Source: Flavobacterium sp. N2038 (GTDB lineage: Bacteria; Bacteroidota; Bacteroidia; Flavobacteriales; Flavobacteriaceae). Taken from it: a stretch of DNA of 64,000 nt. The DNA is taken from positions 3,968,001 to 4,032,000 of the forward strand of contig NZ_CP110001.1 in assembly GCF_025947185.1 (NCBI RefSeq), read 5' to 3'. A program made the translations under genes and the position numbers. Shown one piece after another: positions 32,131 through 64,000 of this stretch (its first letter is position 1; every line of letters begins with the position of its first letter). The notes beneath the pieces were generated by a model. The model was not told where the DNA came from. It saw nothing but the letters and a program-made list of their open reading frames with translations, and did no database searches.

Positions 32131-32814
32131 TTACATCATCGTATTAATACGAATACTGGCTTTTATAAGTGCCAGAGCAGATATTTTTGAAATATGAATA
32201 TCTTTTGGCTGATGATGCGAATTCTGACTGACCAATTTTACATATTCCTGCCCTTGCTCCGATTTTTGAACATATTTTACAGTGATATATTCTTCCCAAT
32301 CATTTAGCTTCACACTTAAAAGATACATTTCACCAAAAAAGATATTTTCAAATTCTGTTTCCTTATACAGAATAATATCTCCAGATTTTAACAATGGATA
32401 CATACTGTCTCCTGTCACAGATATTGCCCCATCACATTTTGGCAAGTTCGGAATTTTTATGGTATCCAGAATTCTCTGCGGTTCTCCACTGCTAAACAAT
32501 TCTCTCAACCCCGCAACAGCTTCCAAATCATACAATGGTATTTCCTGACTAGCATGTAGCGAATCGACTGTTTTTCTATCATTATCCATTATTACTAAGC
32601 TTGTATTTTCTTCTTTAATCATTGATCCATTTCCCGTTAATAGCCACTCCGAATTTAAGTCTGGATAGTAGTGTAATATTTTACACGCTTTATCTGTCCC
32701 CATATTACTACTATTATCCAAAAACTTATTAGAAAATCCTAAATCATTACAGAACTTATACTTAGTAATCCCTTTGTAATCAAGGTATTCCCGAACCCTT
32801 TCCGTTGATCCCAT
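32131..32814 (-). CDS. Phage-type repressor with LexA/S24 self-cleavage domain
   Basis: A 227-aa protein. Residues ~1-65 form an HTH domain (RVREYLDYKGITKYKFCNDL; later DKACKILHYYPDLNSEWLLT). Residues ~90-225 are an S24 peptidase domain with a possible scissile Ala101-Gly102 in LEAVAGL, the nucleophile Ser137 in VTGDSMYP, and Lys180 in VKYV. These three elements match LexA and CI-like repressors that cut themselves when RecA is activated by DNA damage. It is transcribed away from the phage-like gene set to the right, across a repeated operator. It most likely keeps that set silent and releases it under the SOS response. Inducibility is inferred from the motifs. Confidence 0.9.
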   Translation of the reverse strand: MGSTERVREYLDYKGITKYKFCNDLGFSNKFLDNSSNMGTDKACKILHYYPDLNSEWLLTGNGSMIKEENTSLVIMDNDRKTVDSLHASQEIPLYDLEAVAGLRELFSSGEPQRILDTIKIPNLPKCDGAISVTGDSMYPLLKSGDIILYKETEFENIFFGEMYLLSVKLNDWEEYITVKYVQKSEQGQEYVKLVSQNSHHQPKDIHISKISALALIKASIRINTMM

Positions 32815-32820
32815 AAAAAG

Positions 32821-32875
32821 ATGTATTATTTTACGTTAAAAATTTGTTTTAATGTATTATTTTACATTATATTTG
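32821..32875 (+). promoter_or_regulatory. Rightward promoter overlapped by two repressor operators
   Basis: TTTG at 32843-32846 and the perfect -7 box TATATTTG at 32868-32875 are 21 bp apart. Two 18-bp sites that differ at one base, ATGTATTATTTTACGTTA (32821-32838) and ATGTATTATTTTACATTA (32852-32869), are palindromic at their ends (AATGTA/TACATT in the second). Site 2 lies between the promoter elements and touches the -7 box; site 1 abuts the repressor start codon. This is a classic repressed divergent control region. Confidence 0.75.
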
Positions 32876-33037
32876 CAAAGTAAAGAAAAATAAAATTGAA
32901 AAACAATAGGTTAAACCAGAAAATATTGAAAAAAGACAAATTAAACCAATCCGAAATAAAACACAAATAATTGATATACAACAATATCATAAAGCATAAA
33001 CTTAAAAAGAAAAATACTACCCTAAAATATAAAAAGA

Positions 33038-33121
33038 ATGGAAAATACTACGAGTTTAAAAATAGTCATTCATAAAAAATCTGAAAACAGGAAATATCAT
33101 CAAAACTTTAATCCGCATTAA
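33038..33121 (+). CDS. Possible 27-aa leader peptide
   Basis: An ATG-started frame of 27 codons (begins MENTTSLKIV) that ends 1 bp before the start of the next small gene. This tight spacing suggests translational coupling. The duplicated block has a 13-codon frame in the same place (35238). No family is recognised, so it may also be chance. Confidence 0.3.
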   Translation: MENTTSLKIVIHKKSENRKYHQNFNPH

Positions 33122-33122
33122 A

Positions 33123-33260
33123 ATGGGAACAAATCAAATCAAAGAAAAAATTCGGGAACTGGAAAACTGGCTGATTGAAAATCCAAACAGTCCGGAGAGA
33201 AACTTAATAGAATCTGATGTTAAAAAATTACGAACCTTAATAGATAAAAATCATGAGTAA
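33123..33260 (+). CDS. Small early protein, 45 aa, family 1 copy A
   Basis: A 45-aa charged helical protein (contains ELENWLIENPNSPERNLIES and VKKLRTLI). It is not recognised as a named family. The gene is supported by a paralogue at 35276 that shares the LE-[NS]-WLI-x-NPNS-x-ER-[NS]-LIE pattern and the KKLRT helix, and by an 8-bp overlap of its end with the next start (ATGAGTAA). It is among the first genes behind the operator-controlled promoter, so it is likely a phage early gene. Confidence 0.7.
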   Translation: MGTNQIKEKIRELENWLIENPNSPERNLIESDVKKLRTLIDKNHE

Positions 33261-33531
33261 AAATCAAATCGAAGCAAGAATTTCACAATTGTATCTGGCA
33301 CTTCAATATTGTTCTGAAAGATCAAAAACTTTTACGCCCGGAGAAAGAATCTGCATTAACCAGGAACGTTTTCAATGGATGCATATTCTGGAAGATGAAA
33401 CCGCATCACCACGTCCGGTTTCGCAAATCATTGAAAACAAATTAAAAGAAGTCTGGAGACTTGCTGATCACTATAATTTTAAACCTTATTATGGTGATCC
33501 TTTTAAAGAGGAAATCTTATTGTATATCTAA
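33253..33531 (+). CDS. Small early protein, 92 aa, family 2 copy A
   Basis: A 92-aa soluble protein of unknown function (QLYLALQYCSERSKTFTPGE, then ERICINQERF, later RPVSQIIENKLKEVWRLADH and FKPYYGDPFKEEILL). The start overlaps the previous gene by 8 bp. A damaged copy with a stop codon and a frameshift lies at 35409-35709, which shows that this frame is the real one. There is no membrane segment or catalytic motif. By position it belongs to the phage-like early operon. Confidence 0.75.
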   Translation: MSKNQIEARISQLYLALQYCSERSKTFTPGERICINQERFQWMHILEDETASPRPVSQIIENKLKEVWRLADHYNFKPYYGDPFKEEILLYI

Positions 33532-33559
33532 AACTATTATAATCTAAAAGCCAATTACT

Positions 33560-34276
33560 ATGAACACGCCATTAACAAACTCAATCAACCCAACTATGGA
33601 TTTGTCGCAATTTTCTGCCCAGCAATTAAAAGAAGCTTTAAACCGAATTGAAAATAAAAAAAATGAAGAAAGAGATGCTTACAAAAAACTGGTCGCCGAA
33701 ACGATTCCGAAAGCACTTTCGAGATTACATGAAACTTCAGAAATGATGAGAAATGCTAAAACAGAAACTTTTCAATTGTTTGAAACTATTCTGGATTTAA
33801 AAAATCAGGTTTATGGTTTTAAAGAAAAACAGATGTCACATACTTTTTCTAATGATAAAGAGGAAATCACGATTGGATATCGCATTAATGAGGGCTGGGA
33901 CGATACTGTAACTATTGGAATCGAAAAAGTACAAAACTATATTTCTTCTCTTTCTACGAGTAGAGAAACAGCAGCACTGGTTAAAATCGTTTTTAATCTA
34001 CTAAAAAAAGATGCTAAAGGAAATTTAAAAGGTTCGCGCGTTCTGGAACTTCAGAAATTAACAAAAGAGTTTAATAATGAGGAATTTACAGATGGTGTAG
34101 AAATTATTGCTTCTTCTTTTAAACCTATCCGCTCAAGCTGGTTTATTGAGGCAAACAAAATTGACGAAAATGGTGTAAGAACCAATATTCCATTGTCTAT
34201 GTCCTCTGTAGATTTTTTGCAAGGATATGCCTTTAATTTCTTTAATCAGCAAAACGAACAAAGTCATGCAGCCTAG
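33560..34276 (+). CDS. DUF3164-like protein of Mu-like phages
   Basis: A 238-aa soluble protein. The central part agrees, from memory, with DUF3164 proteins of Mu-like phages: a coiled region with kinase-like 'KKLVAETIPKALSRLHE', a beta stretch EITIGYRINEGWDDTVTIGI, then LKKDAKGNLKGSRVLELQKL and a late FKPIRSSWFIEA. The function of the family is unknown, but it is a marker of Mu-like early regions, where it follows the repressor and transposition genes. No transposase A or B gene is present here. Its last 11 bases overlap the next small gene. Unlike its neighbours, it has no copy in the duplicated block. Confidence 0.6.
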   Translation: MNTPLTNSINPTMDLSQFSAQQLKEALNRIENKKNEERDAYKKLVAETIPKALSRLHETSEMMRNAKTETFQLFETILDLKNQVYGFKEKQMSHTFSNDKEEITIGYRINEGWDDTVTIGIEKVQNYISSLSTSRETAALVKIVFNLLKKDAKGNLKGSRVLELQKLTKEFNNEEFTDGVEIIASSFKPIRSSWFIEANKIDENGVRTNIPLSMSSVDFLQGYAFNFFNQQNEQSHAA

Positions 34277-34454
34277 TAACGACATCTACACATCGGCACT
34301 TTTAGTAATTTTATTAATCGCAACCAATCTGAAACCTATTCTTATGTTTCATGAATGGCTAAATTTTAAAATAAACACAACGTACAAACAATATAGAAAC
34401 GAACTCAAAAACAAAGTTAAAAACAGATCACAAAATTCTTTTTTAAACAATTAA
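34266..34454 (+). CDS. Small single-span membrane protein, family 3 copy A
   Basis: A 62-aa protein with one hydrophobic helix (SALLVILLIATNLKPILM, residues ~9-26) and a basic C-terminal half. I use the ATG at 34266, which overlaps the DUF3164-like gene by 11 bp; an in-frame ATG at 34227 lies further inside that gene. A paralogue at 35746 keeps the pattern LL-x-A-TNLKPIL, then EW-[IL]-NFKIN-[ST]-T and QY-[KR]-NE. Function unknown; perhaps an antiholin-like or membrane-bound early protein. Confidence 0.65.
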   Translation: MQPSNDIYTSALLVILLIATNLKPILMFHEWLNFKINTTYKQYRNELKNKVKNRSQNSFLNN

Positions 34455-34516
34455 CTTCATCCAAATACCACAAATTACTACACTTCATTCTTTTCACCAT
34501 TTTAATCATTTTATCT

Positions 34517-34756
34517 ATGTCAATCTCAAGCCAAAGAAGTCTCGGAATTCAAAAAAACAAATTACTTAGATATAAACTTATAAAAGATTTATATCAAAAA
34601 CACAAAACGGAAGATATTCCAACTACGGTCGTTTGGCGTAAATATATCTATCCTGTTTATCCTATCTCAAGAACTACACTTTACGAAATCCTGTGTACTC
34701 CTATTACAATCGAATTGAAAAAAATCGAGGAATTGAGCCAAAAAATGGCTTCATAA
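34517..34756 (+). CDS. Small basic HTH-like protein, family 4 copy A
   Basis: A 79-aa basic protein: RSLGIQKNKLLRYKLIKDLY, then a segment TTVVWRKYIYPVYPISRTTL ending in YEIL that could be a helix-turn-helix. The copy at 36378 is about 85% identical, so selection has kept both. It may be a DNA-binding regulator of the phage-like genes. The HTH reading is a visual judgement, not a domain match. Confidence 0.65.
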   Translation: MSISSQRSLGIQKNKLLRYKLIKDLYQKHKTEDIPTTVVWRKYIYPVYPISRTTLYEILCTPITIELKKIEELSQKMAS

Positions 34757-35237
34757 TTGCATCCAATAAATTAGCTGAAATTGCTTTTCTGTACAAGTCT
34801 GTAAAAACTTCGAACATTGGTGTTCACACACCTTGCATTGACTTTTTTAAAGCAAATAAAGCCCACATCTTTGCTCTCTCAACTAGATTCATTTATAAAA
34901 AACTGAATCAAGAATCATCTAAATTGATTTAAAAATTATAGTATTAAAAATACGTTCTTTTGACATTTTAATCAAATAAAAAGCCTGTAACAATTTATTT
35001 TACAGGCTTTTTATTCTAAACAAAATTCGTTTTTTGATCTTAAAATATTTTTTAAACGTACTGCCTCTTTTTAGCTTTGTCTTTATAAAAGCTTCTCTTT
35101 AACATCTTTCAAAGTGAATCAAGAAAGTTTCATTTTTTCTGATTTCACGATTTGTAACAACTTCTCCATTTGTAAAAATTAATACAATCCATTTACAAAA
35201 AACAACATTCTAATTTCCTAAATCCATAAACTCATTT
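34757..35237 (+). other. Non-coding stretch between the two copies of the early-gene block
   Basis: No gene is supported here. It contains a GGTGT/ACACC hairpin (34819-34832) followed by CTTGCATTGACTTTTTT, a pattern that recurs behind the paralogue at 36749, and the terminator at 34978. An open frame at 34693-34932 overlaps the previous gene in another frame and has no support. Confidence 0.5.
34978..35012 (+). terminator. Strong terminator after the first early-gene block
   Basis: Stem AAAAAGCCTGTAA/TTACAGGCTTTTT with a short A/T loop and flanking T. Confidence 0.88.
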
Positions 35238-35279
35238 ATGGAAAAAAGTCTCTCCATCTTAAATCCTAAATTAAAATGA
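35238..35279 (+). CDS. Possible 13-aa leader peptide before the second block
   Basis: ATG at 35238, 13 codons (MEKSLSILNPKLK), with its TGA overlapping the next ATG as ATGA. It sits where the 27-codon frame lies in the first block. Very short; coupling is the only support. Confidence 0.25.
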   Translation: MEKSLSILNPKLK

Positions 35280-35416
35280 CTATTTCTCAAATCATTGAAA
35301 AAATACAGGAACTAGAATCCTGGCTGATTAAAAATCCTAACAGCGCTGAAAGAAGCCTAATTGAATATGATCTGAAAAAATTACGAACTATTCTACAACT
35401 GCGAAAACATGAATAA
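35276..35416 (+). CDS. Small early protein, 46 aa, family 1 copy B
   Basis: Paralogue of 33123 with the conserved pattern IQELESWLIKNPNSAERSLI and LKKLRT. The frame is intact over its full length, although the gene behind it is broken. Its end overlaps the start of the broken gene at 35409, as in the first block. Function unknown. Confidence 0.65.
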   Translation: MTISQIIEKIQELESWLIKNPNSAERSLIEYDLKKLRTILQLRKHE

Positions 35417-35709
35417 ACACTAAATTAAGAAACGTATTGTACAACTTTATGTTGCACTTCAGTTTTGCTCAGAAAAAATTAAAACGTTTACTGCCGGAGA
35501 ACGAATCTGCATTAATCAGGAACGCTTTTTTGGATAATCCAGAAGCTGAACTGCGCCCTGTTTCATTAGATCTTGAAAATAAAATAAAGCATGTCTCCCG
35601 ACTTGTAGTGAAATATCGTTTTACGCCCTATTATGAAGATCCTTTTATGGAAGAAAAATTGACTTCTGTTGCAAAAAGTGAATTACAATTAGATCAAAAG
35701 ACCAATTAA
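35409..35709 (+). pseudogene. Decayed copy B of the 92-aa early gene
   Basis: Read from the ATG at 35409, codon 5 is a stop (TAA). The frame then continues as QLYVALQFCSEKIKTFTAGE and ERICINQERFF, almost the same as the intact gene at 33253, until another stop. The remaining similarity (DNPEAELRPVSLDLENKIKH, then FTPYYEDPFMEEKL) is in a different frame. So the gene carries one nonsense codon and one frameshift. An open frame from 35437 exists, but its first third is the wrong frame compared with the paralogue. Confidence 0.8.
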
Positions 35710-35745
35710 AGCTTTTCAAAATAACCCAAAAAACACTATAAATCA

Positions 35746-35913
35746 ATGTTACCAAACCATGACCTTTACGCTTCTCTCCTTTTAGGGGCCCTTTTAATTG
35801 CAACAAACTTAAAACCGATATTGGATTTTCGCGAATGGATCAATTTCAAAATAAATTCGACTTTTAGGCAATACAAAAATGAGCGTAAAAAAAAGAACGA
35901 TCAAAGATTGTAA
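35746..35913 (+). CDS. Small single-span membrane protein, family 3 copy B
   Basis: A 55-aa paralogue of 34266: one hydrophobic helix (LYASLLLGALLIATNLKPIL) and a basic tail with WINFKINSTFRQYKNER. The ATG is preceded by a short spacer after the pseudogene. It is intact, so this copy may still be made. It is closed by the terminator at 35943. Confidence 0.6.
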   Translation: MLPNHDLYASLLLGALLIATNLKPILDFREWINFKINSTFRQYKNERKKKNDQRL

Positions 35914-35942
35914 ATTGAATTTCACATAACTATTACTCATTG

Positions 35943-35980
35943 AAATTCATATCAAACAAAAAATAGTTTGATATGAATTT
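35943..35980 (+). terminator. Terminator with a 15-bp perfect stem
   Basis: AAATTCATATCAAAC and GTTTGATATGAATTT with an 8-base loop, followed by TTTT. Confidence 0.9.
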
Positions 35981-36028
35981 TTTCCCACTCAGAACCCGAC
36001 AGTTTTTAAAACTGTAGCAAATAAAAAA

Positions 36029-36377
36029 GGTCCCTGTTTTCTTAACTTATTTTAAGAAAATCAGGAACCGAAAAGCGGGCGCTTTCTGCCCTAATCAAAT
36101 AACTCAAAACCATTCTTTTTCCCAGGATGTTCCAAGTTTATAACTCAGGAACAAAATTGTCGTGCGGACTCTGCTGACTTAAATTATTAAGTTCTTATGC
36201 AAGAATGACTTCAGGACGAAGCTCCAGACGATTTTCGGCATTAGGAGAGTGGCCATTGATATATTAGGATCAAATGGTTTTGGTTATCTGTAATGCATTT
36301 AAAATTATTCTTAAGCCTCAAATGGCTGTACTTCTTTAATCTAAAAACAATTCTTTCAATCATTTTACTCTTTCATT
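36029..36377 (+). other. Structured, GC-richer non-coding region; possible small RNA
   Basis: Begins with a long hairpin (36029-36069; GGTCCCTGTTTTCTTAA pairs with TTAAGAAAATCAGGAACC except for a couple of bases), followed by a GCGGGC...GCCC stem. The section to about 36260 is richer in G and C than its surroundings and has stops in all frames. It has no counterpart in the first block. Either an RNA gene or the remains of a replaced segment. Confidence 0.35.
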
Positions 36378-36623
36378 ATGGCAATATCTAATAACAGAAG
36401 TCTCGGAATTCAAAAAAATAAACTTTTACGCTATAAGCTTATCAAAGAATTGTATCAAAAACACAAAACCGAAGATATTCCTACTACTGTAGTTTGGCGT
36501 AAATATATCTGTCCAGTCTACCCTATTTCTCGTACCACTTTGTACGAGATTCTTTGTACTCCGATAACTTCTGAACTCAAAAAAATAGAAGAACTGATTT
36601 CGAATCAAACTAAGACTTTATAG
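36378..36623 (+). CDS. Small basic HTH-like protein, family 4 copy B
   Basis: An 81-aa near twin of 34517; differences are at the N-terminus (AISNN for SISSQ), at a Tyr-to-Cys change in WRKYICPVYP and at the C-terminus. Such high conservation between copies, while family 2 has decayed, suggests the protein is used. It is the last gene before the lysis cassette, so a role as late-gene regulator is conceivable. Inference only. Confidence 0.65.
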   Translation: MAISNNRSLGIQKNKLLRYKLIKELYQKHKTEDIPTTVVWRKYICPVYPISRTTLYEILCTPITSELKKIEELISNQTKTL

Positions 36624-36932
36624 AACAGTAAAATCATATTGTCTACTGCTATTTTATCTGAATCGCTTTGCAAAGATGTGTCTTTTTTTGCTGTAAAAAA
36701 GGCCCTTGTTCGTTGACTGAACAACTCTGTAAAGTACCAGAATACAAGTGTTTAAACACCTTTCATTCGTTTTTTTTACCGCTTTTTTAGACCAATCTTT
36801 GTACCCACTAAAGGAAACAACTACAGCGATTACAACAGAAAGTTCAGGCCACATTTCTTCAAAAACACACTCTCCAAAAGCTGTTTCTCCCAAAAACAAA
36901 ATTCAATCCTAACACCAATTTTATAACATTAA
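36624..36932 (+). other. Non-coding spacer before the lysis cassette
   Basis: Contains the palindrome GTGTTTAAACAC (36749-36760) followed by CTTTCATTCGTTTTTTTT, like the element at 34819. A leftward open frame over 36654-36899 has no recognisable product and no counterpart, so I do not annotate it. No clear TAnnTTTG box is seen. Confidence 0.45.
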
Positions 36933-37220
36933 ATGGAACAGTTTCTATACCCCACTCTTACCGCATTTTTTGCCGCATTTATTACCTGGTTCTTCTCTAT
37001 GAGAAAATCATTGGCTCAGGACAGAGCCGCCGAACTTGACAACGCCGTGAGCGCCGTAAAATATTACCGTGACTTACTCGATGACCTTACCGCCCGACTA
37101 ACCACTGCAACTGACACCATTAAAAAAATGGAAATACAACATAGAGAGCTCATGCTCATAAACCAACAATTAGTAGATGAACTACAAAAATTTAAACAAC
37201 TAAACGGAAAACAACAATGA
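36933..37220 (+). CDS. Holin-like small membrane protein
   Basis: A 95-aa protein with one N-terminal hydrophobic helix (FLYPTLTAFFAAFITWFF, residues ~4-21) and a long charged coiled coil (~25-95). It overlaps the endolysin gene by 4 bp (ATGA), the usual arrangement in lysis cassettes, and is followed by an endolysin and a spanin-like gene. Holins or pinholins open the inner membrane at lysis time. The sequence does not belong to a holin family I know, so the call depends mostly on position and topology; an antiholin or tail-assembly role is possible. Confidence 0.6.
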   Translation: MEQFLYPTLTAFFAAFITWFFSMRKSLAQDRAAELDNAVSAVKYYRDLLDDLTARLTTATDTIKKMEIQHRELMLINQQLVDELQKFKQLNGKQQ

Positions 37221-37669
37221 CATTATCCCAGAAAACCTTAGAAACTGCAATTGCTCAGGTTGGCGTTGAAGAAATGCCACGAAACAGCAATGCCGGTCCT
37301 GAAGTCGAGATTTATTTAAGAAGTGTCGGACTCGCAAAAGGATATCCATGGTGCATGGCTTTTGTTTACTGGTGTACTCAAAAAGCGGCATTACAATTAG
37401 GAGTCAAAAATCCTTTAAAGAAAACAGGCGGCGTATTAGACCAATACAACTCAAGTAAAACCTTAATAAAAAAAGAACCTCAGCCTGGCGATGTCTTTAT
37501 TCTAGATTTTAAAAACGGAACTGGCCATGCCGGAATTGTCGATAAAGTTGCAGGAAGTCTTATCTACACCATTGAAGGCAATACAAACGACATGGGAGGT
37601 CGCGAAGGCTATAAAGTAGCCAGAAGAAAAAGAGAAATTAAAAGCATTAAAGGCTTTTTAAGACTCTAA
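37217..37669 (+). CDS. CHAP-domain endolysin (TIGR02594-type)
   Basis: A 150-aa single-domain peptidoglycan hydrolase of the NlpC/P60-CHAP fold. The catalytic cysteine is probably Cys46 in GYPWCMAFVYWC, the histidine is His104 in GTGHAGIV, and EGNTND follows as in this family. It should cut peptide bonds or the MurNAc-L-Ala amide. There is no signal peptide, so it needs the holin to reach the wall, which fits its place between holin-like and spanin-like genes. The small size and lack of a binding domain are typical for phage lysins of Gram-negative hosts. Confidence 0.87.
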   Translation: MTLSQKTLETAIAQVGVEEMPRNSNAGPEVEIYLRSVGLAKGYPWCMAFVYWCTQKAALQLGVKNPLKKTGGVLDQYNSSKTLIKKEPQPGDVFILDFKNGTGHAGIVDKVAGSLIYTIEGNTNDMGGREGYKVARRKREIKSIKGFLRL

Positions 37670-37700
37670 AATATACTTAATAAACAAATTGCAATTTATC

Positions 37701-38189
37701 ATGAATAATTTAAAACGTCTTGTTTTTTTGTTTTTTTCAGCCTTAGTTCTGGTTTCGTGCAAAAGCCCGAAGCCGGTTCTAAGCGAAGAAAAAAACAAAA
37801 CTATTACTATCAAAGAAACGGTACACGATACTGTTTTTAAAATTCAGAAAGACAGCAGTTCTTTCAAAGCATTACTCGAATGTCAAAACGGAAAAGTAGT
37901 TGTTAAGAATGTTACTCAAGCCGAACCAGGGCGTACATTAAAAAGCCCAAAGGTTCGTCTTGACAACAACAAACTTAACGTAGACTGCGAACTCAAAGAA
38001 CAGGAACTCTACGCCCGCTGGAAATCGCAACAGGTAAAAGAAACGGAAGTAAAAACCATCAACACCACAAAATTTGAAAACTATTTGACTTTTTGGCAAA
38101 AGGTACAGATTTGGTTGGGGAGAATTTTTCTTTTGGTGTTGGTTTACTATGTCTTAAGATTTATCAGGAGATTTTATCATTTATTTTAA
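37701..38189 (+). CDS. Unimolecular-spanin-like lipoprotein
   Basis: A 162-aa protein with a lipoprotein leader (lipobox LVSC, Cys20) and a single hydrophobic helix at the very C-terminus (IWLGRIFLLVLVYYVL, residues ~138-153) followed by basic residues. An acylated N-terminus for the outer membrane and a C-terminal inner-membrane anchor is exactly the topology of u-spanins such as phage T1 gp11, which fuse the two membranes at the last step of lysis. The middle is beta/coil-rich and charged. The start is the ATG at 37701; one four codons earlier is also open. The order holin-endolysin-spanin supports the call. Confidence 0.75.
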   Translation: MNNLKRLVFLFFSALVLVSCKSPKPVLSEEKNKTITIKETVHDTVFKIQKDSSSFKALLECQNGKVVVKNVTQAEPGRTLKSPKVRLDNNKLNVDCELKEQELYARWKSQQVKETEVKTINTTKFENYLTFWQKVQIWLGRIFLLVLVYYVLRFIRRFYHLF

Positions 38190-38322: not shown

Positions 38323-39468
38323 ATGAAAAATCTATGCTGTCTTTTCTTTTCACTATTCTCTTTATGCATCTCTGCTCAACAAAAAAATAATCAAGAGATA
38401 AAAATTTTTCTTGAAGATGCAGAAACAGGAAAAAATATTGATGACGCAAAAGTAACTCTTGAAGGTTTTGAAATTCCTCCAATCATTGGTCTGTATGACA
38501 AGAAAGATAAGTTTTATTATTTTGATAAAATACCTGCTGGGTATAATACAATCATGTCTTATCACAAAAAATATAATGAGAAGGGGTATCAAAACTTAGA
38601 GGGATTGCCGGGAGAGTTGAAGTTGAGGCTTTATGATCCTTTGAATGTTTCTTATAGCTTCGAGTCATATATCTACAAAAACAATTATGTAGAAGATCCT
38701 TATAAGATTAGCATATTGAAAGAAGATTTGTTAGAATATAATACTCAAAAAGATTTTATAAATCAAACGATCAAAGATTTACAACTAGCTGTAGAATTAG
38801 TAAATCCTTATTGGGAAATGAACAAAATTGAAAATAATTCATATGGCATTTCTCAAAAAGAAGGATATCCAGCATTAAATCTTAAAGAAAATCAAAAAGT
38901 AGAAGGAGATTATTTATTTCCATTAGCGGGAGGAGTAAGTTCTTTTTTTCCTGATAGATCTTATTCAAATACATCCAGAGATATATGTTTCATTTTAAGA
39001 AAAACAGATGGCTCAAAATTTAAAAGATATAACGATCCGATAATAAAAATACTAAAGCAATACAAATTTGAAGTCTATTCCATAGTATTAAACAAGAAAA
39101 ATAGAACAGAATTAAATACCAAATTTAAAATCAGAGATCGTGAGAATAAAAAATTCAATCTAAAAAATAAAATAGATTCATCTAAAGTATTCTTTTATGA
39201 TAATAATTTTCGAAACGAAAAAAAATCATTTGCACTGTTTAATTTTTTCAAAAAACAGTATTACTTACCATTTGATGAGCCAAATAAATCCACACAATTA
39301 CCATCTTTCATTTTAATATCAAATAAAAAAAATGAAACCTATAATCTTTTCCCTGAGATAGGAAAAGAAAACCCAATCACACATAAAATACCTTTCCCTG
39401 ATGAAGCTCTTGGACTCGGTATATTAGACATATATGAATATTACTCAAAAGTACATTTAAAAACATGA
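38323..39468 (+). CDS. Secreted protein with a transthyretin-like N-terminal domain, function unknown
   Basis: A 381-aa protein with a signal peptide (ends near CISAQ). Residues ~25-110 look like a prealbumin/carboxypeptidase-regulatory Ig-like domain: KIFLEDAETGKNIDDAKVTL, FYYFDKIPAGYNTIM and GELKLRLYDPLN. The rest is lysine/asparagine-rich with no recognised domain. It overlaps the start of the S8-protease gene by 4 bp, so both are made together. It is the only protein of this stretch, apart from lipoproteins, with a Sec signal. A partner, inhibitor or immunity factor for the protease is possible but unproven. Confidence 0.65.
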   Translation: MKNLCCLFFSLFSLCISAQQKNNQEIKIFLEDAETGKNIDDAKVTLEGFEIPPIIGLYDKKDKFYYFDKIPAGYNTIMSYHKKYNEKGYQNLEGLPGELKLRLYDPLNVSYSFESYIYKNNYVEDPYKISILKEDLLEYNTQKDFINQTIKDLQLAVELVNPYWEMNKIENNSYGISQKEGYPALNLKENQKVEGDYLFPLAGGVSSFFPDRSYSNTSRDICFILRKTDGSKFKRYNDPIIKILKQYKFEVYSIVLNKKNRTELNTKFKIRDRENKKFNLKNKIDSSKVFFYDNNFRNEKKSFALFNFFKKQYYLPFDEPNKSTQLPSFILISNKKNETYNLFPEIGKENPITHKIPFPDEALGLGILDIYEYYSKVHLKT

Positions 39469-57400: not shown

Positions 57401-60277
57401 TTACTTTCTGATAAGATTTATCCAGATAATGAAGAGCTGTTTGCTGATTATTTTAAACTTTATTTCAGAGATAGTCTTCCTCAAATTGAACATGCAAAAA
57501 TTGCAAGCATTACAGATAGTTCATCAAATGAACTTACCTCAATTATTAGAATTAACGAATACAAAATTCTAAGCAGTGGCGAAGACATTAAAATCAGCTT
57601 AAACAATTCTAATAAAAATAGATTTATCGGAGGTATTTTAACAGTTGGTGATGAAAACTATATCATTCAGAATATTAATGTTGTTACTACAGCAGGAAAA
57701 TTTGGATATGCAGATGTCGAAGTACTTAAAAAAGAAGTAGGTCAAAGCCTTTCTGACGGTAATGCAACAATTGATTCTGAACAGATCAAGCAAATCAAAA
57801 AACCAGTTAACGAATTATGTTCATTAGTTGAAAATATGCTAACGCCTGCAAACTGGCGCCAGCCAAGTCCGATTGGTTTTCAGGTTCAAGTGCCGCAAGC
57901 CTTAAAAACTGTAAATAGAGAGATTGTTTCGCAAAAAGACAGTCAAGGAAATGACACTTTGCAGGTAGAAAAAACTCGAGGAATTTGGAATGATAAAGTA
58001 GAAATTAAAAAAGTTCTGGAGCAAGCTTTTAAGGTAGATTCGAAAGGAGCATATGTATTGGATAAAGATGAGAATCCGATTCCACTTCCAAAAGAAGAGA
58101 AAAAACATTTTGGTTTATATCAGCTTACTTTCAAAGGATTAAAATTAGCTCAGCATCCACAATTCAATAATGGTAATCAACATTCTGTTGAATGGATGAA
58201 CGGTACTGTTCGTTTATTTACTAAAAGCTGTTTTGAAGGGGCTAACCCTATTCCGGTAAAATCGAGAAAAGAATTTAAAGTTATACGTGTAGACAATATC
58301 GGAACAGACCAGGATTTAGTATTAACTATCAATGATCCTAATTTTAAAATTAAAAAAGACGGAACCCAAGAAATGGATCCGACTTACGATCACATTCTTT
58401 TTCAAGAAAATGTACAACAGAAAGTAAATTATTATCCAAGTTATAAAGTATATCTTTTTGCTGATTCTTCAAACGGAATTACAAAAGAAAGCATTCAGCC
58501 AAGAGAAGGAGAAAATACGCATTATTCAATTTTTGGAATTAGCAGCCATTCAAATGCTTATAACTATGATTCTAAAATTAGTGCGCCAACTCCAATGTAT
58601 GCGGTTAGAATTGAAAAACCTGCAAAACCCGAGGATGTAAAAGGAGCTTTATATGCCACAAGACCTGATTTTTTCAACAGATCAACATACACGTTCACAA
58701 CGACATATACGCACAAACCTTACGGAATGCTACATTACAGGGCAAATGACCAGGCTTTGTTAGATGCTTTGTATAAAACGGAAACAATTGCTGCAATTCG
58801 TGAAGAACTTAGTAAACTTGGCGGAAATAATGAAACTTTTTTCTCCAAGAGATGGGAAAATTTCTTAGATCTTGAAAGCTTAATAAAAACGAATAATGTT
58901 TTAAATCCGACTGATTTACTTGGGCCTGAAGATCAACCAGATGTATTGCCTCCAAGACAACCTTTGTATTATAAAGAGTTTCCTCTTGATGGTGATCCAT
59001 TACTTAGATATCGTTTCCCTGCTCCAGATAGCGAACTTTTTATTGATTCTATTAATGAATTTATTGAATGGCACAATACGTCACATCCTACAACAAAGGC
59101 TCCAAAAATTACTGTTCTTAACACTTTAAATGATATCATAATTTCGACAAAACATGGAATTGAAAGAAATCTATTAGCAATACATTTTATAGAACAAGTT
59201 ATTCACGCCACTTTTGTGCCACTTACTGAAGTTCCTGTTATTTACGAATATATTAAGGATAACGATTATGTACCCGTTAATAAAAAGCAAACCATTAAGG
59301 ATAAGAATGGAAATATTTTAAAATATCCGCATCCTGATTTAGATATTGCACCGATGATGAAAATCACAGATGCAGCGCTATTCAAAACGCAGTTTACAGA
59401 TTTTAATCTAGACGGAAATTCTCAAAACATTTATTTCTACGGTGTTCGCGAAATGGATATTAAAATGAATTTCAGTGAGTTCAGTACTTTCTTGGGACCT
59501 GTGAAACTAGTTCCTTCTAGCCCACCGCAAACACCAGAGATTAAGAGAATTATGCCTGTTTTAGAAAATCAGGTTTTAGGAATCAAGCCTTCTATTCAAA
59601 TCGAATTAAATGCTTACAAGCCAGAATATAACATTAGAAAAATTAATATCTATCGTGCAAAAAACATGCTGGATGCACAATCAATTAGAACGATGACTCC
59701 TGTCAAAGAAATTTTGATTAATGAGGATACTTTATCTACTGATTTTAATAGTGTTTGGACGGTTTACGATGAATTTGAAGATTTAGAAAACGTTCCTTTT
59801 GGTGATGGCCTTTTTTATAGAATTACGGTTTCAAGAGAAATCGAATACGCTGATCCGAGTTCGACAGATGAAAATAAGATTATCAATATTGATTATACAC
59901 CATCTCAGCCATCAAAAATTACAGCTACAATAATTGCTGATAATGTTGCTCCAGAATCCCCAGTATTATCTGCTACTGGTATTCCAACCGGAGAAAATGA
60001 ATCTGTTTTGAAACCAGTTGTATTTAGTTGGGAAAAAACAGTTCATAATGGTAAGTATCATTTGTATAAAATGAATAATCAAGGAAACTGGGATAAAATT
60101 CAAGAGAAAATTTCTAATGAAAACACAGTGATGTTGGCTTTACTGGAAACCAAATTAGAAACCGACGAATTAACTATTAAAAATGGTGATGATGAAAGAA
60201 TCTACCATCATTTCAAAGTGCTTGCCGAAAACTCTTCGGGCATGTACAGTAGTGAAGAAAAAATTCTAACCCTATAA
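54443..60277 (+). CDS. Giant 1944-aa protein with N-terminal vWA domain and C-terminal Ig/FN3-like domains
   Basis: Residues ~15-200 are a von Willebrand A domain with the metal-binding MIDAS motif Asp23-x-Ser25-x-Ser27 (VVDESGSING) and Asp124 in VVVVTDGLQ. The central ~1400 residues are not recognised. The last ~250 residues contain two FN3/Ig-like modules (KINIYRAKNMLDAQ; ESPVLSATGIPTGENESVLK with FKVLAENSSGMYSSEE). There is no signal peptide. It stands 12 bp after the 2435-aa gene, and composition and codon use look alike, so the two are probably made as a pair. vWA domains usually bind other proteins through a metal ion, so adhesion or assembly is likely. The precise role is unknown. Confidence 0.75.
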   Translation: MSSINLQESQSSGCETYIAIVVDESGSINGNEAQQIRDGLTSFINSQAQSKITLSLIGMSGSDNNSRSEHVIQKRISGNTSSFLSWINGFGSRSANPQSDHWASGLEVVNNLTVIPDVVVVVTDGLQVNDTNLLKNLYQNLDDKSHIFVYGVTSTVNNATELVTPITNFLGKTPVLKNSGLSMLNTDYIRVPDFSTLGAELNQLSNDLSGAQIGCLPNVSIIQNKLVYPVLKKGLAVHESAGTLVLRNKSRVPLTLPAGIRIHNASNLGGLVFRLEETVVIPGLASVEAKIRIDGTPSAMESHNALIVLPGVYNPSNFKISFTVTKEVYIVDLNSGKTALQSTSLQIAAAGSKGLDSTKGIHLRWLLAGELGANHLPKGDLYTGGTTNFNKPDDFVKLYRAPYTKVVHKLDLTKKPQTVDRNKALWVYKTPALQRSIYVYFKNKAKYLLTYASINPMTDPSGFIEAYGNEIIEIENKSELFFAAELKFNAVESASIVKLETLSVAENSIAASKRVTNRKNYSSSQANSIRVLAENGRSLRFKANKCLLREIHFEFYRDFIQNANTNGNWDLKGKFALTLTDNKAFEQLEPKLNAVHGKWLKFNDGEYVNVKNYKDKWKRTTAEGDKNIKQVVNSYIDLSLDGTNPTALETVKFKDSVPTNEPVPGEEAKFEENTTEISNLDLLNIAANDFHIARMLGLGCIDIDETVLSGEYIYLTEYVTFKNLEGGTTPKEVQHLSMSIPTSVNTERLPLPVQLSKYLPGLNAGSDEDEQSAKITDPNGYSFDGKKRYVSLFMNDIADYSVNTAFFDSTDEFDGSSFTFPIYAGVDYKFKGEANWQKPELACDTAYSNVTKDLGTGSFEPSPIIIPESGKSFLNVRQEKTGLQTYVYQGYGINIFSRATSGRQLEITSEIKPNNTLLPPSGINSLLITEENPLMFTSISEQIKLKTLLDNESITDKTYIRLLFEYYSAQELLSYSIPDGMTKEDALLSDKIYPDNEELFADYFKLYFRDSLPQIEHAKIASITDSSSNELTSIIRINEYKILSSGEDIKISLNNSNKNRFIGGILTVGDENYIIQNINVVTTAGKFGYADVEVLKKEVGQSLSDGNATIDSEQIKQIKKPVNELCSLVENMLTPANWRQPSPIGFQVQVPQALKTVNREIVSQKDSQGNDTLQVEKTRGIWNDKVEIKKVLEQAFKVDSKGAYVLDKDENPIPLPKEEKKHFGLYQLTFKGLKLAQHPQFNNGNQHSVEWMNGTVRLFTKSCFEGANPIPVKSRKEFKVIRVDNIGTDQDLVLTINDPNFKIKKDGTQEMDPTYDHILFQENVQQKVNYYPSYKVYLFADSSNGITKESIQPREGENTHYSIFGISSHSNAYNYDSKISAPTPMYAVRIEKPAKPEDVKGALYATRPDFFNRSTYTFTTTYTHKPYGMLHYRANDQALLDALYKTETIAAIREELSKLGGNNETFFSKRWENFLDLESLIKTNNVLNPTDLLGPEDQPDVLPPRQPLYYKEFPLDGDPLLRYRFPAPDSELFIDSINEFIEWHNTSHPTTKAPKITVLNTLNDIIISTKHGIERNLLAIHFIEQVIHATFVPLTEVPVIYEYIKDNDYVPVNKKQTIKDKNGNILKYPHPDLDIAPMMKITDAALFKTQFTDFNLDGNSQNIYFYGVREMDIKMNFSEFSTFLGPVKLVPSSPPQTPEIKRIMPVLENQVLGIKPSIQIELNAYKPEYNIRKINIYRAKNMLDAQSIRTMTPVKEILINEDTLSTDFNSVWTVYDEFEDLENVPFGDGLFYRITVSREIEYADPSSTDENKIINIDYTPSQPSKITATIIADNVAPESPVLSATGIPTGENESVLKPVVFSWEKTVHNGKYHLYKMNNQGNWDKIQEKISNENTVMLALLETKLETDELTIKNGDDERIYHHFKVLAENSSGMYSSEEKILTL

Positions 60278-60317: not shown

Positions 60318-60372
60318 AAAATCAAGCTAATCAAAAATAATATTTACAGAAAGAAAATAAATTTCAAACAAC

Positions 60373-62628
60373 ATGGCAACAGACAGAACTAACATTGGCT
60401 ACAAATTCGAAAAAGGAGATATTCCGTCGCAGGAAGACTTCCAAGAGGTGTTTAAAAGTTTCGTTCATATTGACGAAGACAAAGCCGATTTTCAAATGGT
60501 CGAAGCAGGAACCGATAATCAGCATTATGTAACTCCTGCCCTTTTGTATACAGGTTTAAAGAATATTGGCATCATTACTGGAAATAACTATATGCCACGT
60601 AAAGAGCATTTTGACTCATTTGTTGGCGATACCATTACTTTGCAATATGCACCAGTTAATTACAGTGTTAAAGTTTTTAAAAACGGACAATTATTACTGG
60701 AGAAAGAAGGTCAAGGAAATGATGGAGATTATATTATCAATTACGAAATGGCCAAAATCACTTTTTCGGGAAATATTGACAATAGAAACATCGAAGTCGA
60801 TTATTGGTATAAAAATTTAGCTCCAAATCCAAATCCAGGAGGCGGTTCTGGAGAACCAATTGACTTTACAAGCTTTCTGCATACTTCAGGAAATGAAACC
60901 AAAAACGGAATCTTAACTTTCAACAACACTACTCCTACCTCAACTAGCGGAATTGTATTAACAAATAGCGGTGCCGATGCTGGCGCAAAAGTATTGGATG
61001 TAACAGTTAGCGGAGCCGGAAGTGGTATTGCTGTTCAAAATACAGCAACAGGAACTGGTATTAAAGTATCTAACACTGGATCTGGAGCGGGTTTACAAGT
61101 AAATTCTTCTTCAACAGCAACAGGAGATCCTTTGCAAATATCGAAAGATAATGTTGTAAAAGCTAAAATTGATAATGATGGAATTGTAACAGCTAAAAAA
61201 TTTGTTAGCGAAAATGGAACAGATACTAAATTTGTTAAAGGAGATGGCTCTCTTGATCCTAAAACATATGCTGAAGACAATAATGTAATTCATACCACAG
61301 GAAATGAATCTAAAGATGGAGCATTAAATTTAACGCACAATACCTCTGTAGATGATGTTCTAACCATCACTAAAAACAATAGTGCTAACTGCTTAAAATT
61401 AGTTCAAAACTCTAATTCTAGCGCTACTACTTCTACTTTTGATACTACTACTTCCAATGTAAACAGAAAAGCGATCAGTATTAAAAAAGAAGGACAAGAA
61501 AAAGCCTTTATTACACACGATGGAAACGTAACAGGAACTTCCTTTACAACCTTAAACGAAAAAGCCGATATTACCAACGGATTTTTAACCTTAGCCGCTT
61601 CCGATTCTCCAACTGCAACAGCAGGTCATGCAAAATTATATGCCAAAACAGCTGGCACTACTGATTTGTATGTGATGGGTAGTGATGGGGTTGAGAAGAA
61701 GATTGGTGATAACAACGCATCTACTGGAGCATTATTAACGACAACAGACCAATCTTTTACTGGTATCAAATCTGTTACAAATACTGGCAACACACAAACA
61801 AACGGATTATCTATTACCAATGATGGCGGTGGCGGAAGCTATTCTGTATCATTAACAAATAACGGTGATGGAATTGGTCTAATGTCAAATAATACATCTA
61901 CAGGTTTTGGTATTTACTCTCGTCAATCTGGAGAGGGTGGACGAGGAATCTATGCTGGCAACTCTACCGATTATGGTTTTGGTCTATTTTGTCATAATAC
62001 AGGAAATGGAACTGGACTATTTGCTCATAATGAATTTGGTTCAGGAAATGCTATATCAGTTGTCAATGGCGGTAGTGGTGTGGGGATTTCTTCTTTTACA
62101 TCTTATGATGGACACTGTATTGTAGCCAATGCCGGATCTAGCGCTACAGGTCTTTTATATGTTGGAAAAAACAGTGGAACCGATACTTTTACAGTAGATA
62201 AAACTGGTGATGTGAGAGCAAATCGTTTTATAAAAGCTGATGGTACAAGTTCTGAATATTTGATGGCAGATGGCTCTGTTACTACGTCCACACCCCAAGC
62301 GTTACCTTATAAAGTTTATACAGCTATTGTCTCTCAAACAGCCGGTGGAATCCCGACAGCTATAGTATTAGAGAATACTTTAGGCGGAACAGTAACCTGG
62401 TCTAAAAATCAAGTTGGATTCTTCTATATGAATTCAACAGGTCTTTTTACACTTGATAAGACAGTAGTTTTATCTTCTAATGGTCTTAATTATGAAGACA
62501 CTTCCAATTATCATATCACTTGGGATAATGACAGTACTGATACCATACGTTTATACACTTCTACAGACATTGAACCGAAAGATGATTTATTAAGAAAATC
62601 ACTTATAGAAATAAGAGTATATAATTAA
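60373..62628 (+). CDS. Phage tail-fibre-like protein
   Basis: A 751-aa leaderless protein. The N-terminus (NIGYKFEKGDIPSQEDFQEV, then FVHIDEDKADFQMVEAGTDN and YVTPALLYTGLKNIG) has the pattern of the attachment end of flavobacterial tail-fibre proteins. A beta domain (~75-150) and a Pro/Gly hinge (NPNPGGGSGEP) follow. The shaft has many short repeats of the type [ST]-G-x-G-[IL]-x-V-x-N (e.g. GAGSGIAVQNTATGTGIKVS, and again ~470-590), as in trimeric beta-helices. The C-terminal ~100 residues (YKVYTAIVSQTAGGIPTAIV and on) form a compact tip that may bind the target. It would give host specificity to a particle. Confidence 0.78.
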   Translation: MATDRTNIGYKFEKGDIPSQEDFQEVFKSFVHIDEDKADFQMVEAGTDNQHYVTPALLYTGLKNIGIITGNNYMPRKEHFDSFVGDTITLQYAPVNYSVKVFKNGQLLLEKEGQGNDGDYIINYEMAKITFSGNIDNRNIEVDYWYKNLAPNPNPGGGSGEPIDFTSFLHTSGNETKNGILTFNNTTPTSTSGIVLTNSGADAGAKVLDVTVSGAGSGIAVQNTATGTGIKVSNTGSGAGLQVNSSSTATGDPLQISKDNVVKAKIDNDGIVTAKKFVSENGTDTKFVKGDGSLDPKTYAEDNNVIHTTGNESKDGALNLTHNTSVDDVLTITKNNSANCLKLVQNSNSSATTSTFDTTTSNVNRKAISIKKEGQEKAFITHDGNVTGTSFTTLNEKADITNGFLTLAASDSPTATAGHAKLYAKTAGTTDLYVMGSDGVEKKIGDNNASTGALLTTTDQSFTGIKSVTNTGNTQTNGLSITNDGGGGSYSVSLTNNGDGIGLMSNNTSTGFGIYSRQSGEGGRGIYAGNSTDYGFGLFCHNTGNGTGLFAHNEFGSGNAISVVNGGSGVGISSFTSYDGHCIVANAGSSATGLLYVGKNSGTDTFTVDKTGDVRANRFIKADGTSSEYLMADGSVTTSTPQALPYKVYTAIVSQTAGGIPTAIVLENTLGGTVTWSKNQVGFFYMNSTGLFTLDKTVVLSSNGLNYEDTSNYHITWDNDSTDTIRLYTSTDIEPKDDLLRKSLIEIRVYN

Positions 62629-62985
62629 GTCAATATAGACATGAAATAATTATTCCTAACAATAGACCAACCAATCTATATCCTACTCGATAACAAGACT
62701 GAGTGCATTAAATAATGTAAATATGCTTAATTCAGATTTGTCAGCGACCGTTTCGGTTGCAAATTATTATAAAATGTTCAATAAAAAATAGAACTGATAA
62801 ATGGGGAAGAATATTAATCTTCCCATTTATTATAATGAAATCAGAATACAACTATTATGTGATGGTTATTAATCATCTTTTTAAATAGTAATCAAGTCAA
62901 TTTAGGACTTACCTAAAAATGAACCAAAAAAGGATTGAATAAGAACAATACTAAAATAAATTCAAAAACAGATTAAAATAATAAA
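62629..62985 (+). other. Spacer after the fibre gene, with a terminator
   Basis: 357 bp. A hairpin at 62797-62830 (ATAAATGGGGAAGA with TCTTCCCATTTAT, one bulged G) is a good terminator. A 22-codon frame at 62723-62791 has no support. Nothing else is seen. Confidence 0.6.
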
Positions 62986-63237
62986 ATGGAAAATATAGAA
63001 ATAAAAACAATTAACCCAGAACAATTGAAGAAATTGCAAGATTTTAATGTCTTTATGGATAAAGCCAGAACATCACTGGGAGAATTGTCTATTCAATTTG
63101 AATTTCAAAAAGCTGATATTTTAAGCCAAATTGCCGTTCAGCAGCAAAACTTCAATGAACTAGAAAAAGCAATTAAAGATGAGCACGGAGATATTCGCGT
63201 GAACATTGAAACCGGCGAAATTGTAAAGCAAGAATAA
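62986..63237 (+). CDS. Small coiled-coil protein of phage-tail neighbourhoods
   Basis: An 83-aa soluble helical protein: KTINPEQLKKLQDFNVFMDK, a Q/E-rich helix with IQFEFQKADILSQIAVQQQN and an end HGDIRVNIETGEIV. From memory, small proteins of this look occur near tail genes in Bacteroidota phages, possibly as chaperones or tape-measure-associated factors. No named family is assigned. It has its own spacer on both sides, with hairpins at 62797 and 63273. Confidence 0.6.
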   Translation: MENIEIKTINPEQLKKLQDFNVFMDKARTSLGELSIQFEFQKADILSQIAVQQQNFNELEKAIKDEHGDIRVNIETGEIVKQE

Positions 63238-63272
63238 GAATAATTCTTGGTAACAATTTTTAAAATAGTTAT

Positions 63273-63315
63273 TTAGGAACCACAAATTTATCAACCTTTT
63301 TGGCGTGGTTCCTAA
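63273..63315 (+). terminator. Hairpin in the spacer after the coiled-coil gene
   Basis: TTAGGAACCAC pairs with GTGGTTCCTAA over a 21-base T-rich loop. The rest of the 307-bp gap 63238-63544 shows no gene. Confidence 0.55.
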
Positions 63316-63544
63316 TTAACTTTAATACTTCCCTATCACAATCTTTGTGTACTTACTTTTAGACAATCTGCTTAATTTAATTGTTGCTTTTTTATAAATT
63401 CAATTTACAGCAAGGAAATAAATTATAAAAATTACTTCAAAAAAGCTCATAAAAATTGGCTTTTTAATCTCATTAAACTTAGTAGTTGCTTAAAGCAATC
63501 CTTCTCTAAGTTGAGACAAATCATAAATCAATTATAAACAAAGT

Positions 63545-64000
63545 ATGGAATATTACAATATAGCCAAGTCATTGACTGCGGCAAAAAATGATTGCGCTGC
63601 CGGAGTCATGGGTACTTCCGTCGAGCTTACTGCAAATGCAAATCAGTTTGTATCGACCATAAGTGTCGAAGATGCCAATGCAAAAGCAGATGCATGGCTC
63701 GCAGCAAACGTACAAGCTTATGCAAATAACGCTGGTTCCTGCAGGGCTACTGCCTGGAGAGGAATAAATCCTTCTTGTGTAGTCGAACCCATAACTGAAC
63801 TATCTCCTTTTAACTACATGGTTATTAGATACAAATGGGCATTAGGAGCAGGACAAGATTTTGACACTTATACCGGAATTATTAATTCAGGAACTTCCTT
63901 GGATAATAAATGGATGGGATGGGGTCACGGATTTAATAACGAAATTCCAGAAAATGCCTCGGCTGCCAATGCTTACATTATGTGGGCGGGAGATAACAGA
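63545..64000 (+). CDS. DUF5977-like repeat protein, 5' part only
   Basis: The frame is open from the ATG at 63545 to the end of the window (152 residues). The first ~65 residues (YYNIAKSLTAAKNDCAAGVM, then VELTANANQFVSTISVEDAN and AKADAWLAANVQAYANNAGS) follow the pattern of DUF5977: a Cys-Gly turn, ISxxDA-x-AKA, then a second Cys. A second domain starts near residue 85 and contains FNYMVIRYKWALGAGQDFDT and a WGHGFNNEIPENAS stretch. No signal peptide is present. It is probably a further surface or fibre-type protein of the same locus; the C-terminus lies outside the window. Confidence 0.7.
   Translation, partial: MEYYNIAKSLTAAKNDCAAGVMGTSVELTANANQFVSTISVEDANAKADAWLAANVQAYANNAGSCRATAWRGINPSCVVEPITELSPFNYMVIRYKWALGAGQDFDTYTGIINSGTSLDNKWMGWGHGFNNEIPENASAANAYIMWAGDNR

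Follow-up and report, generated by a model that had tools for sequence, protein, structure and literature searches.

How would a bacterium make use of giant proteins that carry no export signal and that are encoded next to a phage-type lysis cassette? This question is raised by a locus of Flavobacterium sp. N2038 in a stretch of 64,000 nucleotides (positions 3,968,001-4,032,000 of a single-contig genome of 4.67 Mb), the whole of which is here called the window. The locus starts at position 32131, passes the end of the window and reaches about 72.7-76.4 kb, which is 8.7-12.4 kb past the window. It encodes a phage-type control region, lysis proteins, candidate effectors, two giant proteins (BIG1 and BIG2) and fibres. 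The gene order, the control elements and the lack of leaders in the giants are conserved among related loci, in which the C-termini of effectors are swapped. With somewhat better than even confidence, we read the locus as encoding an antibacterial toxin complex of several leaderless proteins that is induced by DNA damage and released by lysis.

A search for BIG2 across 398 Flavobacterium genomes gave matches at E 1e-3 in 58; by our own count, about 40 of these matches concern the core of the protein and the remainder only its VWA domain. We compared 25 loci, consisting of 23 relatives (up to about 54 kb around BIG2), locus G009 (60 kb) and the source locus, and added the upstream stretches of 12 further loci, giving 37 loci, of which 36 have upstream sequence. 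The BIG2 core is also present in Bacteroidota other than Flavobacterium. A total of 179 named relatives were confirmed, including Chryseobacterium, Kordia, Mesonia, Salegentibacter, Kaistella, Epilithonimonas and Microscilla, and the best 80 (74 loci) were kept, with flanks mostly too short to include lysis genes. A BIG2 locus (L144) is also present in Flavobacterium johnsoniae CI04.

Giant proteins, lysis genes and a shared upstream element

The lysis genes, the giants and the elements that precede them are as follows.

36699-36835, plus strand: late-promoter-like element before the lysis genes, with the dyad CTGAACAACTCTGTAAAG at 36717-36734
36933-37220, plus strand: small protein, holin-like by position, with one N-terminal hydrophobic segment (hydropathy) followed by a coiled coil (by eye)
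37217-37669, plus strand: leaderless CHAP endolysin (PF05257, 1e-12; endolysin PHROG, 6e-17)
37689-38189, plus strand: unimolecular spanin (u-spanin) with a lipobox N-terminus and a C-terminal transmembrane segment (by eye); phrog_3198, Rz-like spanin, 8e-4
46820-46837, plus strand: dyad of the late-promoter-like element before BIG1, CTTTACACACCTGTAAAG, exact dyad pattern
47123-54430, plus strand: BIG1, 2435 amino acids, distantly DUF6603-like; residues 640-1100 predicted to form a large amphipathic antiparallel beta sheet or barrel
54443-60277, plus strand: BIG2, 1944 amino acids, with an exchangeable N-terminal binding-type domain (here VWA, 3e-5) and a conserved FnIII-like core
60373-62628, plus strand: fibre protein with a conserved anchor of about 63 residues; profile match to the c21 fibre, 1e-12

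The genes for the holin-like protein, the CHAP endolysin and the spanin precede the gene for F0, a candidate effector, in 28 of the 36 Flavobacterium loci, as identified with hidden Markov models (HMMs), and the endolysin and the spanin were recovered in 16 of the 25 loci by clustering. The eight loci referred to below as trio-free are G258, G410, G294, G140, G296, G152, G284 and G009. A first-pass annotation, made from the sequence of the window, had proposed a cassette of holin, endolysin and spanin. The endolysin and the spanin are borne out by family matches, whereas the “holin” is a small protein with one transmembrane segment that matched no holin family in Pfam or PHROG scans. In three genome pairs, the ratio of nonsynonymous to synonymous substitution rates (dN/dS) was 0 to 0.17 for the control and lysis genes, indicating purifying selection, and 0.08-0.21 for the giants; several of the dS values behind these ratios are above 1.5.

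BIG1 adjoins BIG2 in all 25 fetched Flavobacterium loci (where BIG2 is present by selection), and both giants are found in 69 of the 74 named loci. Signal-like stretches were scored as the hydropathy of the first 40 residues with a limit of 1.9. No protein exceeded this limit among 25 each of BIG1, BIG2 and the F0 family (maxima 1.83, 1.82 and 1.49) or among 19 fibres, and in the named loci only 1/70 BIG1 and 1/73 BIG2 proteins did so. The claim that all large proteins are leaderless thus stands for the giants, the fibre and the F0 family, but not for the products of 38323-39468 and 45791-46432, which have hydrophobic, export-type N-termini.

A late-promoter-like element of roughly 120 nucleotides was first noticed, unforeseen, in the consensus of upstream regions, and an HMM was built from 13 lysis-side copies. 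The element precedes the lysis genes in all 28 lysis loci, in 13 of them by construction; in 12 non-construction loci it was paired with the gene from its position, at kilobase resolution. At E 0.01, 15 of 17 lysis-clade loci have it 139-325 nucleotides ahead of BIG1, and it precedes the spanin in three loci with an intervening gene. It was found in none of the eight trio-free loci and, by HMM search, not in the Flavobacterium phage fF4 described below. In the 4.67-Mb genome there are just two exact occurrences of the dyad CTNNACANNNYTGTAAAG, one preceding the lysis genes (36717) and one preceding BIG1 (46820), a count that is supportive but not independent because the pattern was written after both copies had been seen. 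Near its 3' end the element contains AATCTTTG, which resembles the flavobacterial -7 box, and a full promoter pattern was found in 0/15 and 0/17 upstream regions; a -7-like box without the full pattern suggests an activator-dependent late promoter. The presence of the element before both the lysis genes and BIG1 argues for joint, late expression of lysis genes and giants.

The BIG2 tree, which took in 20 of the 28 lysis loci, splits the 20 lysis-linked rows from the eight trio-free loci on a branch of length 1.07 (Shimodaira-Hasegawa-like approximate likelihood ratio test 100), with no named row among the lysis-linked rows. The tree fits, without proving, the acquisition of the lysis half by one capture. 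Three trio-free loci have histidine-kinase and response-regulator-like genes upstream (names by eye).

Predicted properties of the giants and the fibres

The model of BIG1 residues 640-1100 has 22 strands of at least 7 residues (mean 12), the two faces of which differ by 3.48 Kyte-Doolittle units, as compared to 1.31 +/- 0.20 in shuffles. The same face difference in the two halves of BIG2 is 2.36 and 1.66, below that of BIG1. Membrane barrels, ushers, LptD and ApoB are the structural neighbours of the BIG1 model, and it is possible that the modelled region is a barrel, a lipid-binding sheet or a hydrophobic shell. Matches to DUF6603 were obtained for 3 of 16 BIG1 homologues (best 4e-9), with none over the curated cut-off for BIG1 in the window. 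In profile comparisons, the best result for BIG1 was with the proteins of DUF6603 operons, at E 0.005 over 296 columns and a probability of only 7%.

BIG2 varies in its N-terminal domain (n=16), with VWA in eight proteins, Invasin_D3 and Big_1 in three and DUF285 in one. The core was modelled as FnIII-like domains with a predicted local distance difference test (pLDDT) score of 84. Profiles of BIG1, BIG2 and the slot protein C16 had no match in the PDB up to E 0.1, and F0 had one weak, unrelated match (0.017).

The 63-column anchor of the fibre is shared with the c21 fibre, which is present in five of the eight trio-free loci. A second anchor, NHNRIKVADLE, starts 48 proteins in 17/17 lysis-clade loci and none in the eight others; judged by this shared start, these proteins are a set of exchangeable fibres.

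A control region related to a Mu-like phage

The left part of the locus contains the control region and early genes.

32131-32814, minus strand: S24/LexA-type repressor (PF00717, E 3e-12) with an Ala-Gly cleavage site and Ser and Lys motifs
32821-32838 and 32852-32869, plus strand: two operator-like direct repeats, core TGTATTATTTTACRTTA
within 32821-32876, plus strand: flavobacterial-type promoter TTG-N21-TATATTTG, with the second operator-like repeat inside it
33123-34276, plus strand: early genes for two small proteins and a DUF3164 protein
34517-34756, plus strand: small protein f5, copy 1, helix-turn-helix-like (HTH-like) by eye; candidate late regulator
34785-34887, plus strand: early copy of the late-promoter-like element (nhmmer 2.5e-19)
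35276-36623, plus strand: small early genes again, as a diverged second copy with f5 copy 2 (36378-36623) at its end

The motifs AVAGL, GDSM and TVKYV, which we take to be the cleavage site and the Ser-Lys pair of self-cleaving repressors, are identical across all 23 repressor homologues, and their retention makes SOS induction of the locus likely. An operator-covered promoter had been proposed for the window; both repeats, with small changes, and the promoter are kept at identical offsets in 22/22 loci examined. The DUF3164 protein matched PF11363 (E 1e-8) and phrog_846 (1e-28), and no named family was matched by f5 in our scans. The early gene block is partly duplicated (33123-34454 versus 35276-36623), and its first copy also includes f5 and a copy of the late element. 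In locus G121 (L066:12205 onward), the half with the repressor, DUF3164 and f5 is inverted and lies at the opposite end of the locus.

The phage fF4 is described as a transposable Mu-like phage of Flavobacterium columnare that was inducible by mitomycin C in one single experiment (PMC7761591; MN850656). The best family members matched fF4 at 5e-21 for the repressor, 3e-58 for DUF3164, 8e-6 for f5 (fF4 gene 7740-7979) and 7e-27 for the spanin, in the same gene order as in the locus. The DUF3164 protein is 42% identical to that of fF4, and the spanin of the window matched fF4 25542-25913 at E 4e-14. Unlike fF4, the annotation of which carries a DDE transposase, a terminase and a capsid, the locus has an endolysin unrelated to any fF4 gene, and giants and effectors in place of phage body genes. 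It is not a complete Mu-like prophage, since no counterpart of the transposase, terminase or capsid was found among the locus genes scanned. These genes, in the window and beyond it, include no integrase either, nor, in line with what the first-pass annotation had seen in the window, a portal, sheath or tube. The giants had no match among 50,697 phage records.

An exchangeable slot for candidate effectors

Between the spanin and BIG1 is a slot that had been overlooked in the first-pass annotation, the contents of which are exchangeable and resemble pairs of toxins and immunity proteins. The source locus contains the following genes in the slot.

38323-39468, plus strand: exported protein of 381 amino acids with a hydrophobic N-terminus (3/3 family members); candidate immunity protein for the protease pair
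39465-42389, plus strand: leaderless effector with a subtilase fold (PF00082, 2e-19)
42394-45825, plus strand: F0 protein with a C-terminal HExxHxxGxxH zincin motif (HEVCHGLGLFH); Reprolysin_4, 0.036, sub-threshold
45791-46432, plus strand: lipoprotein with a lipobox-like start (by eye), candidate immunity protein; PepSY, PF03413, 0.0027, below cut-off

Of the two proteases proposed initially, the first has a subtilase fold, but its activity is unsure because the usual position of the Asp motif, as we take it, reads VIEGQ. The second rests on the zincin motif and a sub-threshold match. A subtilase is present in the corresponding slot of 5/25 loci and also in G065. F0 family members were identified in 24 of the 25 loci, the remaining locus being cut by a contig end, and 49 proteins of this family were found, the source protein included. 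The source locus combines the subtilase, a long F0 and the lipoprotein; other variants have F0, C16 and a small gene, or F0, c62 and c63, and a further variant has F0, c28 and exported proteins in one to five copies. BIG2 is 90% shared between the source locus and G272, F0 just 35%. No NCBIfam match was obtained for C16 and F0, and one weak match (0.006) for c28.

Among the 21 C16 proteins are 22 pairs with an N-terminal identity of 50% or more over 400 or more residues. The last 150 residues have no match in 12 of these pairs (in one example, 92% N-terminal identity is followed by none), while one of the remaining ten is 74% identical throughout and nine are weak or short. A constant N-terminus with an exchanged C-terminus, as in polymorphic toxins, is thus found in the relatives, and the source window holds the protease variant. 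A small gene that follows the slot effector of one relative matched SUKH-1 at 3e-5, just below the cut-off, and EndoU was matched in a relative at 0.0017, clearly below it. All 16 of the c18, c34 and f41 partners start with a hydrophobic N-terminus, which is what protection against effectors that act on the envelope would lead one to expect. In region L188:9829-17176, orphan toxin C-termini and immunity-like genes form an array that is split by IS200-type-like transposase genes.

Comparison with known systems

In Yersinia entomophaga, a type 10 secretion system is reported to release the toxin complex (Tc), and a cluster of holin, endolysin and spanin genes outside any phage lies beside giant toxin-complex genes without a classical export route (PMC10847048). 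The locus is similar to this system, as described there, in having a lysis cluster beside genes for giant proteins that lack a classical export route, and differs in its control by an S24 repressor and Mu-like phage genes. It has the endolysin, the spanin and the non-phage setting (no capsid, terminase, portal or integrase in the scanned part of the locus), and a small protein with one transmembrane segment and no family match in the position of the holin; as judged from gene content, it is a type 10 system in anatomy save for the holin. No homologue of TcA, TcB or TcC was found in PDB profile or Pfam scans.

The slot resembles polymorphic toxins, such as TANFOR of Bacteroidetes (PMC7073777), in its constant N-terminus, exchangeable C-terminus and adjacent immunity-like gene. 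Unlike these, the slot proteins are leaderless and are coupled to a pair of giants and to lysis genes.

The DUF6603 (PF20248) operons of other Bacteroidota are likewise rows of large proteins, to which BIG1 is linked by its distant DUF6603 region. BIG2, F0 and C16 have no convincing counterpart among the remaining genes of these operons (best E 0.048), and no lysis cassette was noticed in the gene lists read, for which no profile search was made. Of 395 Bacteroidota genomes, 16 encode true DUF6603 proteins, which are part of rows of large proteins (L215-L228); behind the row in L219 are a periplasmic-binding-like and a Tail_Collar-like gene (by eye), like the right end of the source locus. A search of 5.39 million papers yielded no mention of DUF6603.

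R-type tailocins and extracellular contractile injection systems (eCIS) are released by lysis and bear fibres. The locus is similar in having fibres and lysis genes but dissimilar in that no sheath match was found in the genome and no tail gene at the locus. The first-pass annotation had suggested that the locus could be one half of such a particle, which did not hold: the scanned genes, as far as the right end, include no sheath, tube, baseplate or AAA+ gene. The sheath family PF04984 had no match in the genome, as compared to matches in 3/14 control genomes; the tail tube family PF06841 had none either, but also matched no control genome. The gene families inspected in the 25 loci, each formed by clustering and shared by two or more loci, include no contractile part. 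A gp25-type baseplate gene is absent from the locus, and the sole match in the genome is about 0.5 Mb away in a cluster resembling a type VI secretion system (T6SS). This T6SS-like cluster (source genome 3,483,000-3,496,000; L229) comprises two small Hcp-like genes, a VgrG-like gene and gp25, all but gp25 named by eye.

Right end and flanks of the locus

62986-63237, plus strand: conserved protein f14 of 83 amino acids, present in 12/25 loci
63545-64000, on to 64342, plus strand: DUF5977 protein (E 2e-20)
past 64342, to about 72.7 kb: another DUF5977/Hint-like protein, then fibre modules and proteins with DUF285 repeats
to about 76.4 kb: two proteins of the Tail_Collar family and one leaderless Peripla_BP_6 protein, membership uncertain

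The right border is unsure because the Tail_Collar family is present in only 2/25 loci and the Peripla_BP_6 gene in the source locus only. Beyond about 76.4 kb is a large PKD/SprB-like adhesin, apparently host sequence (SprB name by eye). At its C-terminus, the second DUF5977 protein (L001:1354-2226) resembles a Hint/intein domain (PT-HINT, 0.0036, below cut-off). Two adjacent tRNA-Ser(TGA) genes (28823-28908 and 29054-29139) are located about 3 kb to the left of the locus. The genes were found where the first-pass annotation had placed them, and Pfam matches identify the repressor, DUF3164, CHAP, subtilase, DUF5977 and VWA proteins.

Discussion

A lysis-released giant complex of a kind other than a tailocin had been mentioned as an option in the first-pass annotation, and it agrees with the lysis genes in 28/36 loci, the shared element and the leaderless giants. 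By analogy, the best reading is a complex that resembles a Tc toxin with type 10 secretion but is built from other proteins. The self-cleaving S24 repressor, a relative of the one in a Mu-like flavobacterial phage, would keep the early promoter shut until DNA damage leads to its cleavage and the early phage-type genes are expressed. A late activator, perhaps the HTH-like f5, would then turn on the elements before the lysis genes and before the giants, and effectors, BIG1, BIG2 and fibres would build up in the cytoplasm until the holin-like protein, the CHAP endolysin and the u-spanin burst the cell. The fibres and the N-terminal domain of BIG2 would bind the target, the amphipathic beta-sheet part of BIG1 would act on or in the target envelope, and the effector would be delivered, with exported or cytoplasmic immunity proteins protecting kin. 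The first half of this mechanism, from control to lysis, builds on conserved sequence, and the second half on the layout and the analogy to Tc toxins and type 10 secretion; SOS induction, particle assembly, envelope insertion and killing are what we infer from them.

More tentatively, and as a proposal that we hold possible rather than probable, BIG1 and BIG2 may be the shell and translocation part of a Bacteroidota-wide class of toxin-delivery particles unrelated to phage tails and Tc toxins, in which the beta region of BIG1 opens a path through the outer membrane and the slot loads polymorphic effectors. One Flavobacterium lineage would have captured a Mu-like switch and spanin, plus an endolysin, and other lineages would use other control and release genes (two-component genes upstream, an amidase downstream). 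The chance that the particle as such belongs to a new kind is fair.

Several observations weigh against the toxin-complex reading. Eight diverged Flavobacterium loci have the giants without the lysis trio, so that lysis is not intrinsic to the core, and an Amidase_2-type gene is found behind the giants in just three of these eight (HMM; Pfam check in one locus). The CHAP endolysin had 64 phage matches, all below 60% identity and none from a Flavobacterium phage, and the lysis set is therefore of mixed origin. In the source genome, the element on the BIG1 side is degenerate (nhmmer 0.035) and is one of the two misses. The AlphaFold model of BIG1 residues 1-1200 has a mean pLDDT of 72 and a predicted template modelling score of 0.39, and none of the structural matches explains assembly. 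The source slot holds protease-like proteins rather than an established toxin, and the subtilase among them is without the usual Asp motif. The 12 swapped C16 pairs come from three groups only (six among four loci, five between G134 and five others, one between G009 and G121), and most partner or immunity-like genes scanned match no immunity family.

These protease-like effectors, and a BIG2 that starts with VWA, Invasin_D3 or Big_1 depending on the member, could also belong to a public-goods or adhesion complex, in which a few lysing cells free proteases, adhesins and fibres that break down polymers or prey or adhere to them, with no killing of rivals; DUF5977 is mentioned in a paper on fibrillar adhesins (PMC8286594). 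We consider this unlikely, since the C-terminal swapping with small neighbours, SUKH-1, EndoU and the orphan cassettes in relatives form a polymorphic-toxin pattern, and the lipoprotein and exported partners beside the proteases fit immunity. It is improbable that the locus is an altruistic device against phages or predators, with the giants as sensors and the attacked cell lysing itself. Such a device would account for the self-cleaving repressor, the lysis genes and the phage-derived control region, and one PADLOC subtilase model matches (7e-6), but there was no other PADLOC match among seven proteins scanned, and giant genes of six to seven kb, fibres and immunity-like genes are unneeded for suicide. 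A degenerate prophage with cargo genes, as the fF4-related control and spanin genes and the missing transposase, terminase and capsid could imply, is likewise improbable given a gene order kept in 28 loci, an operator pair in 22/22, the low dN/dS of control, lysis and giant genes in three genome pairs (several dS above 1.5) and giants not found in phage records. That the locus is part of a tailocin or eCIS with tube and sheath elsewhere, which its fibres, Tail_Collar proteins and lysis cassette bring to mind, is hardly credible with no sheath match in the genome, gp25 only in the T6SS-like cluster and no tail part in shared families.

If the reading as a lysis-released toxin complex is true, the locus would be a further case in which a lysis cassette captured from a phage frees giant cytoplasmic proteins, here of another set. 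The control logic, with a self-cleaving repressor and a shared late element, makes the system directly testable with mitomycin C, and the effectors with constant N-termini and variable C-termini would offer new pairs of toxins and immunity proteins. The giants, which currently carry labels like “hypothetical protein” or “VWA domain-containing protein”, may represent a weapon class of the Bacteroidota.

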